NCBI GenBank assembly: GCA_001560915.1
Contig: CP014214.1
Location: 1,488,001-1,552,000, forward strand
Origin: a methanogenic archaeon ISO4-H5
GTDB lineage: Archaea; Thermoplasmatota; Thermoplasmata; Methanomassiliicoccales; Methanomethylophilaceae
Direction: 5' to 3'
Length of the DNA: 64,000 nucleotides
Each line of letters opens with the position of its first letter. Positions within the stretch are counted from its first letter, which is position 1. Positions 25,329-28,389 of the stretch are shown piece after piece. The notes under the pieces are model-generated. The model had not been told where the DNA came from. It worked only from the letters and a program-made list of their open reading frames with translations, and did not search any database. The translations under genes and the position numbers were made by a program.

Positions 25329-26552
25329 TCAGATCAGGTCTTCGAAGCCTTCCACGACCTTGGGGAACTTCTCCTTGATGGCCTTGAGAAGGTTGTAGAC
25401 GGTGACGTTCTTGATGTCGGCGGTGGAGATGAGCTTCATCAGCTTGTTGATGGTCTCGTCGTCCAGGGTGGCGAGCCTCTCCTTGGCCCACCAGTTCCTG
25501 TAGAGCTTGTCCTCCATCCTGTCGCGCCACATCTTCTCGTAGGGCTTGAGGGCCTCTTTGGAGTAGTCGCCGGTCTTGGCGCACTCGGTCAGGACCTTTC
25601 CTGCGTACATTCCGGTCCTGCATGCATGGCAGATACCTCCTCCGGTGATGGGGTCGATGATCCTTGCGGCATCTCCAACCAGGAGGATGTTGTCAGCGAT
25701 TGCACCGTCCTCGAGTCCGGGACAGGTCGATACGAATCCACCCATGACCTCGACAGCACAGGACTTGTCGAACCTGCTGTCCTTGGCGATGAATTCGTCG
25801 AGACACTATTTGGCGAGTCCGGGCCTCTTCTTGGCTTCGGTTCCGATGACTCCGATACCGACGTTGGCGACTCCGTTGCCCTTGGGGAAGATCCAGATGT
25901 ATCCTCCGGGTGCCTCGGATCCGATGATGAACTCGCAATAGTCGGGTGCGACATCGGCGTTGACCATCCTGTACTGGATGCAGGAGTCGATATCGCTGAG
26001 CTTGAGCTTGGTGTCGATTCCGGCCCACCTTCCGATCTGGGACTCGTATCCGTCGGCTCCGACGATACAGTCGCAGTAGATCTCGATGGGTTCTCCGTAC
26101 TCGATGGCCTTGACTCCGATGATCTTGCCGGCCTCGTTGCGGATGACGTCGGTGGCGGAGGTCCTCATCATGACCTTGGCACCGGCGGCGATTCCGTCCC
26201 TGACGAGGGCCTTGTCGAAGAGGTGCCTCTCGAGGACGTATCCGACCTCGGCACCTGCTTTGGATTCGTCGAGCTGGAAGGTGGTCCTGTCGGGGGATTT
26301 GAGGATTGCTCCCTTCATGTCTCCCCTGATCCAAGTGGGGTCGGGGGTGATTCCGACCTCGTCGAGCCAGGATTTGGAGACTCCCTCGGCGCACCTGAGG
26401 GGTGCTCCGACCTCGGCCTTCTTCTCGATGAGAAGGGTGTCGAGTCCGCCCTTGGCACACCATTTGGCGGCCATTCCTCCGGCGGGTCCTCCTCCGACGA
26501 TCAGGATCTGACAGGTGATCCTCTTGACACCGTTGACGATCTCGGTCTTCAT
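25329..26552 (-). CDS. Geranylgeranyl reductase family enzyme with an in-frame TAG codon
   Basis: The whole frame is 408 codons; codon 249 is TAG (25806-25808), and everything else is uninterrupted. Before it lie the FAD motif GGGPAGG (20-26) and PLRCAEG with C54; after it lies the second FAD-binding block GDAARIIDPITGGG (293-306). The enzyme saturates the isoprenoid chains of archaeal lipids using ferredoxin. A product ending at TAG would lack the second FAD block, so function requires read-through, most plausibly as pyrrolysine. A fresh nonsense mutation (for example from GAG) or a sequencing error is the alternative. It overlaps the upstream ferredoxin gene by 4 nt in an operon with tes. 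Confidence 0.82.
25806..25808 (-). other. In-frame amber codon, candidate pyrrolysine site
   Basis: Codon 249 of the geranylgeranyl reductase reads TAG in the context GGA CTC GCC AAA TAG TGT CTC. The flanking protein text (PGLAK and CLDEFIAKD) is contiguous and in frame. No stem-loop that I could recognise as a PYLIS-like element follows directly. Confidence 0.6.
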
Positions 26553-26731
26553 TGCTTAGCCTCCTTGGGTTCAAGAGAGAGGGCCTGCACGGGGCAGAGC
26601 CCGACGCAGATTCCGCACTTGGTGCACTTGTCGCTGAACTGGAGTACATAGTCGTTGAGGAAAATGGCGTTGTGAGGGCAGGAACCCACGCATCCTCCGC
26701 AGTGAAGGCATTTCGATTCGTTTACTATCAT
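26549..26731 (-). CDS. Two-cluster 4Fe-4S ferredoxin
   Basis: 60 residues with two C-x2-C-x2-C-x3-C motifs (C8, C11, C14, C18 and C36, C39, C42, C46). ATG 26731 has ggagtga upstream; a GTG at 26740 overlapping the tes stop is the alternative. It probably supplies electrons to the adjacent geranylgeranyl reductase, as shown for the equivalent ferredoxin in Methanosarcina, and perhaps to the tetraether synthase. Confidence 0.88.
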   Translation of the reverse strand: MIVNESKCLHCGGCVGSCPHNAIFLNDYVLQFSDKCTKCGICVGLCPVQALSLEPKEAKQ

Positions 26732-26736
26732 GTCGT

Positions 26737-28389
26737 TCACTCCTTGGGAGCTTCTTCCTCGTCCTTGGGGACGATGGGGTAGTTTTTCTGGATCTCTCCG
26801 ACGGTCTGGTCATACTCAGCCTTGTTCTTCTCCTTCCACTCGGAGAGTGAGATGGAGAACTTCTTCTCGACCTCCTGACGGAGTTCGACACCGCTGTTGT
26901 ATGCGCAGAAGGGGATGATCCTGCAGTCGGGGGTCACATAGTGGATGGAACAGCGCTTGACCCTCTCGAAGTCGTAGTTGTAGTGGTCCTGGAAGTGCAT
27001 GGCACCGACGTACATCATTCCCCAGGAGAATCCGGCAAGGGTGTCCTTGGACTTCTTGCTCATGATTCCGAGCAGGGTGCTGATAAGACCGTTCTTGGTG
27101 AGTCCCTCAGGCATCTTCTCCTCGATGAGGCACTGGAGCAGGAGCTTCCTGACCTTGAGTGCGGTGAGCTTCTTGAACTTCTTCTTCTCGGCGATGGCTG
27201 CGATCTCGTCAAGACCCTTGACGAACTCCTCGACCTTCATGAAGGAGGGGAGGGGGATGACCTTGCTGCCGTCCTCGGAGATGAAGAAGTAGGTCGCGAG
27301 ACCGCAGTGGGGGTGGGTCGGGAAGGTGATCTTGTTCTGACCCAGGATGATGGATGCGTAGTTGGAGATTCCGGCCACGGTGGGTACGGGGTACCAGTCG
27401 TCCATGGTGGTGTATCCGGTGTCCTCACAGATGCGCTTGGCGACGTCGGTAAGGGTGATCCTTCCCTGGGAGACCTCTTCGTTGGTGACCCTTCCGGTGA
27501 ATGCAACAGGCTGGTAGTTGACTCCTCTGACAACGTCCCTGTTCTTGATGGCGAATTTCAGGATGTCTCCGATCTCGTGGTCGTTGAGTCCCATGACGGT
27601 GGTGACCACAAGAACGATGGAGGGGCTGTGTCCGGTCTCCTGCCTGAGCTTCCTGCAGTTCTCGATAACGCCCTCTTTCACGGACATCATCTTCCTTCCC
27701 CTGGACCTCATGTAGATGTCGTCCTCGAGTCCGTCGAACTGGAGGTAGATGGTGTTGAGTCCGGCCTGTGCGCACTCCTTGAGCTTCTCGTAGTTCTTGG
27801 AGAATACGATACCGTTGGTGGCGATCTGTACCTGGGCGAACTTCTTCTCCTTGGCGGCGGCGATGACCTCTACCAGCTTGGGGTAGACAGTGGGCTCTCC
27901 TCCGGAGAACTGGATAGCGGTACAGGCGATGGGCTTCTCGTTGCGGAGAGCGTCCATCATCTTGCAGACGGTGTCGAAATCGGGCTCGTACACGTATCCG
28001 CAGTCCATTGCGTTGGCGAAACAGATGGGACATTTCATGTTGCATCTGTTGGTGAGATCGAGGTTTGCGAGGGCGGTGGGGGACATCATGTCGAGCCTAT
28101 GGCCGTCGACGAAGACGTGGACGTTCTCGCCCTCTTTGAGGGTCTCGTCCATGGAGTTGAAGAGTCCGGTTCCGTCCTTGGCGAACTTCTCGGCCTGGAG
28201 GTACTTCTTCGCGTCGGACCAGTAGATGTCCTTGAATATTCCGTGCTCGGGGCATTTCTTCTCCATGAAGACCTTTCCGTCTTTCTCGAAGATTGTTGCC
28301 TCGATAGCCTTGCTGCACTCGGGGCAGAGAGAAGTGGTCTTTTTGGGAAGACCGACTGCCGCCGAATAAGGTTTAACCGTAGCGCACAT
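26737..28389 (-). CDS. tes: Tetraether lipid synthase Tes (radical SAM, MJ0619-like)
   Basis: 550 residues. The radical SAM cluster is C116-x3-C120-x2-C123 (NRCNMKCPIC), preceded by an N-terminal cysteine cluster (C22, C25, C46) and followed by a C-terminal one (CSIHYVTPDCRIIPFC), the three-region layout of MJ0619/MA_1486 enzymes that join two phytanyl chains to make glycerol dialkyl glycerol tetraethers. The SAM-binding FSGGEPTVYP follows near 155. It leads the operon tes-ferredoxin-GGR, the same neighbourhood as in Methanosarcina acetivorans. Confidence 0.87.
   Translation of the reverse strand: MCATVKPYSAAVGLPKKTTSLCPECSKAIEATIFEKDGKVFMEKKCPEHGIFKDIYWSDAKKYLQAEKFAKDGTGLFNSMDETLKEGENVHVFVDGHRLDMMSPTALANLDLTNRCNMKCPICFANAMDCGYVYEPDFDTVCKMMDALRNEKPIACTAIQFSGGEPTVYPKLVEVIAAAKEKKFAQVQIATNGIVFSKNYEKLKECAQAGLNTIYLQFDGLEDDIYMRSRGRKMMSVKEGVIENCRKLRQETGHSPSIVLVVTTVMGLNDHEIGDILKFAIKNRDVVRGVNYQPVAFTGRVTNEEVSQGRITLTDVAKRICEDTGYTTMDDWYPVPTVAGISNYASIILGQNKITFPTHPHCGLATYFFISEDGSKVIPLPSFMKVEEFVKGLDEIAAIAEKKKFKKLTALKVRKLLLQCLIEEKMPEGLTKNGLISTLLGIMSKKSKDTLAGFSWGMMYVGAMHFQDHYNYDFERVKRCSIHYVTPDCRIIPFCAYNSGVELRQEVEKKFSISLSEWKEKNKAEYDQTVGEIQKNYPIVPKDEEEAPKE

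Follow-up and report, generated by a model that had tools for sequence, protein, structure and literature searches.

An in-frame amber codon in the geranylgeranyl reductase gene of a tetraether-lipid operon

The window analyzed here, a 64,000-nucleotide stretch of the ISO4-H5 genome (1,937,883 bases in one contig), carries on its minus strand three consecutive genes that correspond to the tetraether-lipid operon named in the initial annotation. The first (26737-28389) encodes the 550-residue radical SAM enzyme Tes, the tetraether lipid synthase (NF045702, 565 bits against a cut-off of 450). The second (26549-26740, minus strand) matches ferredoxin families and encodes a two-cluster ferredoxin of 63 residues, which is the likely electron donor for the product of the third, a geranylgeranyl reductase (GGR) gene (25329-26552, minus strand) whose start it overlaps by 4 bases. 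When 63 related loci were searched with tblastn, Tes was found in 57, all of which (57/57) have the order Tes-ferredoxin-GGR; the six loci without a Tes match include some with little upstream sequence.

Read with TAG as a sense codon, the GGR frame extends from 26552 to 25329 on the minus strand and comprises 408 codons, that is, 407 residues and a TGA. Its only internal stop is the TAG at codon 249 (CTA on the plus strand at window positions 25806-25808), exactly as first annotated. The translation matches Pfam GGR_cat (4e-29), TIGR02032 (194 bits, above the cut-off of 158.8) and the solved structure of a digeranylgeranylglycerophospholipid reductase, 3OZ2 (E 3e-104), the source of which we take to be T. 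acidophilum; against the equivalog NF041160 it scores 388 bits, under the 780-bit cut-off of that model. It contains FAD-binding motifs and the YxWxFP motif, here YIWIFP (residues 218-223), and orthologues are present across the family. These family matches and motifs identify the product as an archaeal geranylgeranyl reductase. The part 3′ of the TAG encodes the block GDAARIIDP as well as the C-terminal helices. Two further GGR paralogues are present in the genome, both distant (28-30% identity). Judged by its position, the gene at 25329-26552 is probably AR505_1433 of ISO4-H5.

The amber codon is shared by three species and is followed by sequence under purifying selection

The same codon of GGR is also TAG in two members of the same genus, G021 (RUG10898) and G022 (RUG13270), metagenome-assembled genomes (MAGs) whose names point to a rumen origin and whose GGR proteins are 96% identical to that of ISO4-H5. 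All three species encode pylS, and all three GGR frames end in TGA. A sequencing or assembly error as the source of the TAG was ruled out by its presence in two independent MAGs.

To either side of the TAG the frame has the character of coding sequence, with a coding score per codon of 0.70 in front and 0.65 behind. In the three species pairs, dN/dS (Nei-Gojobori) was 0.122, 0.089 and 0.068 in front of the codon and 0.073, 0.051 and 0.080 behind it. The probability of so few nonsynonymous changes behind the TAG under neutrality ranged from 2e-14 to 3e-9; in 5000 neutral simulations a count as low as that observed never occurred. By this measure purifying selection behind the TAG is as strong as in front. 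Because dN/dS is 0.05-0.08 there, the substitution pattern identifies the downstream part of GGR as translated and needed, and the initial description of this part, with its GDAARIIDP block, as intact is borne out by a frame that stays open to the TGA.

Two features of the surrounding sequence were also observed. Among the three TAG species dS is higher behind the codon (0.24-0.37) than in front of it (0.14-0.21), and the TAG is flanked by a short insert (codons 243-244) and by a Tyr-to-Cys change at codon 250; recombination is a possible source of both. Separately, a frameshift near codon 230, either real or an assembly error, interrupts the GGR gene of another genome (L059, G013:C47).

The genome encodes pyrrolysine machinery and makes little use of TAG as a stop

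The genome holds pylT, pylS, pylB, pylC and pylD, the genes that the initial annotation had named as the ones to look for. The pylS, pylB, pylC and pylD genes score above curated cut-offs and form one cluster, which is adjoined by two mtmB genes with in-frame TAG codons and by a corrinoid protein gene. The pylT gene (71 nt, anticodon CUA; L041, 10247-10177, minus strand) lies just 5′ of pylS; it was found through an anticodon-loop pattern that is at chance level alone, and was accepted on its position and on tRNA features recognized by eye, ARAGORN having returned no pylT match in the 19.5 kb around pylS. Besides pylT, no CUA anticodon was found among 44 tRNA hits in the genome, of which ARAGORN assigned anticodons to 42; the other two, an insert-containing Met tRNA and an Arg tRNA with UCU, were assigned by eye.

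Stop codon usage was then counted. The 46 genes called in the window by codon-usage score end in TGA (41), TAA (4) or TAG (1), the last being GGR itself. In a 340-kb sample, which includes regions picked for holding known amber genes, the 237 genes end in TGA (209), TAA (20) or TAG (8). Seven of these eight TAG 'stops' run on into coding sequence: those of two mtmB genes, mtbB, mtaC, two GGR genes and a sugar-phosphate isomerase gene. The eighth belongs to an adenylate kinase-like gene (L079, 2471-1938), where TAG stands 20 codons before a TGA; this gene is the sole candidate in the sample for a true TAG stop, or else may have a C-terminal extension. In this sample TAG terminates no more than roughly one gene in 240 and is essentially no terminator. 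The mtmB pair and the mtbB-like gene lie near 1.42 Mb, and mtaC (~1.00 Mb), the isomerase (~0.565 Mb), the adenylate kinase (~1.902 Mb) and the second GGR (~1.734 Mb) were identified by sequence inspection against a published list (PMC5011839). In the mtaC-like gene for a methanol corrinoid protein (L074, 5018-4809 onward, ~1.005 Mb), which also appears in the 2016 paper, the in-frame TAG is codon 70; it would make methanol use, too, depend on pyrrolysine.

Codon 249 lies at a variable position

The initial annotation had proposed aligning the codon with its orthologues, and the outcome was divided: TAG is shared by two further species, but 59 of the 62 GGR orthologues have a sense codon, encoding ten ordinary residues. 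The column contains Tyr (30), Lys (9), Arg (5), Met (5), TAG (3), Thr (3), Glu (2), Ala (2) and single Val, His and Asp residues, and its entropy ranks 11th among 396 columns. In the gene tree the TAG species form one clade (support 1.0) beside G017 (AAG) and G019 (AGG), followed by G014 (AAA). On this topology the TAG had a single origin, one substitution away from the Lys codon seen in relatives (AAG to TAG). A structure model (pLDDT 80.9) places residue 249 in a helix, residues 246-257, in which 249 varies among the conserved positions 248, 251, 252, 254 and 255; the side chain of 249 would face outward. The tree of the three species is ~0.33 synonymous changes per site in length, and a TAG free to become any sense codon has a probability of ~0.41 of surviving on all of its branches; its retention in three species is therefore no evidence of selection. 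Neutrality of the codon is argued here from the variability of the site and from this retention time.

The second GGR paralogue has an in-frame TAG of its own (RMAG-O-VAADN; C1:1733679-1734770, L037/L042). At this site G021 has Gln and G022 has Glu. In G009, which belongs to another genus, the TAG of paralogue 2 lies elsewhere, at a position that is Gln in the others; the remaining 97 genomes in which paralogue 2 was matched have no TAG in it. On this distribution, two genera gained TAG codons in paralogue 2 by separate events and at different sites. That TAGs lie scattered over unrelated sites of two lipid genes agrees with drift under constant decoding of the codon.

A model for expression of the reductase

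The presence of the pyl genes and the selection behind the TAG make pyrrolysine insertion, as proposed in the initial annotation, the best reading of these sequence data. The product is very probably a full-length 407-residue reductase with, at position 249, a residue that we take to be pyrrolysine. We propose that tRNA-Pyl(CUA) decodes UAG 249 as pyrrolysine, yielding one full-length GGR. Since TAG is nearly never a terminator in this lineage, a point mutation that turned a Lys-like codon into TAG would, at so tolerant a site, have been close to neutral; the TAG would then have been fixed in the ancestor of the three rumen species and have persisted by drift. Pyrrolysine at 249 is probably neither catalytic nor regulatory. 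We infer both the efficiency of read-through at UAG 249 and the neutrality of the site, and some termination at this codon may give a 248-residue product.

The initial annotation had gone further, suggesting that the TAG could tie membrane-lipid saturation to pyrrolysine supply and so to growth on methylamines. In such an adaptive dependence the level of GGR, and with it core-lipid saturation and membrane composition, would track pyrrolysine supply and methylamine use in the three-species clade. Retention of the TAG in all three species of the clade would agree with this, and, provided that UAG is read by tRNA-Pyl alone, dependence on pyrrolysine is a formal consequence. However, almost all orthologues have a sense codon in this hypervariable column, drift alone would have kept the TAG with a chance of ~41%, and TAG also occurs in unrelated genes such as those for the isomerase and MtaC (46 genes by the published count). 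The proposed tie to lipid saturation is thus left unsupported by the variable column and by a drift probability of ~0.4, and we consider regulation of lipid synthesis by pyrrolysine very improbable, and less likely than the neutral reading.

Selection on both halves of the gene, together with an in-frame ATG 21 codons 3′ of the TAG, would also be compatible with a split gene, in which a 248-residue N-terminal polypeptide assembles with a C-terminal one started at the ATG of codon 270. However, codons 250-269, which would lie outside the C-terminal piece, are conserved too, with one replacement (E253Q) in the three species, and this argues against a split. Furthermore, relatives without the TAG have nearly the same sequence ahead of the ATG, and helix 246-257 would be cut, so that two assembling polypeptides seem highly unlikely. 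No more credible is the insertion of a standard amino acid at 249 by a near-cognate or other suppressor tRNA; Tyr and Lys are indeed common at this site in relatives, but the genome provides a dedicated tRNA with a CUA anticodon, together with its synthetase, and no further CUA tRNA was found. Least probable of all is termination at the TAG in a decaying pseudogene or after a recent nonsense mutation, the alternative that the initial annotation had kept: TAG is a standard stop and the genome has two distant paralogues (28-30% identity), but a recent mutation is rejected because three species share the codon and dN/dS behind it is low, values that rule out a pseudogene as well, and the frames have no frameshift and end in the same TGA.

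The comparison of three species supports the view that a core enzyme other than a methyltransferase is made through a UAG codon. It also supports TAG behaving in this lineage like any other sense codon, gained and lost by genes through drift; gene callers using the standard code would truncate such genes at the TAG.

Comparison with known amber-decoding systems

In MtmB, MtbB and MttB pyrrolysine is catalytic, and TAG is general in the archaeal genes. The UAG of GGR would be read by the same tRNA, but its site is variable, unlike that of the methyltransferases; conservation of the TAG across orthologues at a functional site was not seen in GGR, where 3 of 62 have it at a variable helix position. 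Closer in kind is tRNA-His guanylyltransferase, in which, as Heinemann and colleagues are said to have reported in 2009, pyrrolysine arose by neutral evolution; like GGR it is encoded by a non-methyltransferase gene with a TAG explained neutrally, in a different protein. Archaea that read all TAG codons as pyrrolysine were reportedly described in 2025, and our literature search for an archaeal 'Pyl code' found no paper.

The genome paper of ISO4-H5 (Li et al. 2016, PMC5011839) lists 46 genes with in-frame amber codons; an adenylate kinase is among them, as are AR505_1433 and AR505_1618, both GGR genes. The latter two are almost certainly the present GGR and its paralogue, and other amber genes lie at matching places. 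Because two amber GGR genes are listed there, the basic claim is already published: the in-frame amber in GGR has been in print since 2016 (PMC5011839). The main text of that paper is without an analysis of the conservation, selection or site of the amber GGR genes. For Ca. Methanomethylophilus alvus, where TAG makes up 1.6% of stops, Borrel et al. (2014, PMC4153887) predicted pyrrolysine in digeranylgeranylglyceryl phosphate synthase along with 15 other proteins and argued that, where amber is suppressed, a new in-frame TAG becomes a stable mutation. That case resembles GGR in having a sporadic TAG in a conserved lipid gene where TAG stops are few, and differs from it in concerning another enzyme of the pathway in another species.
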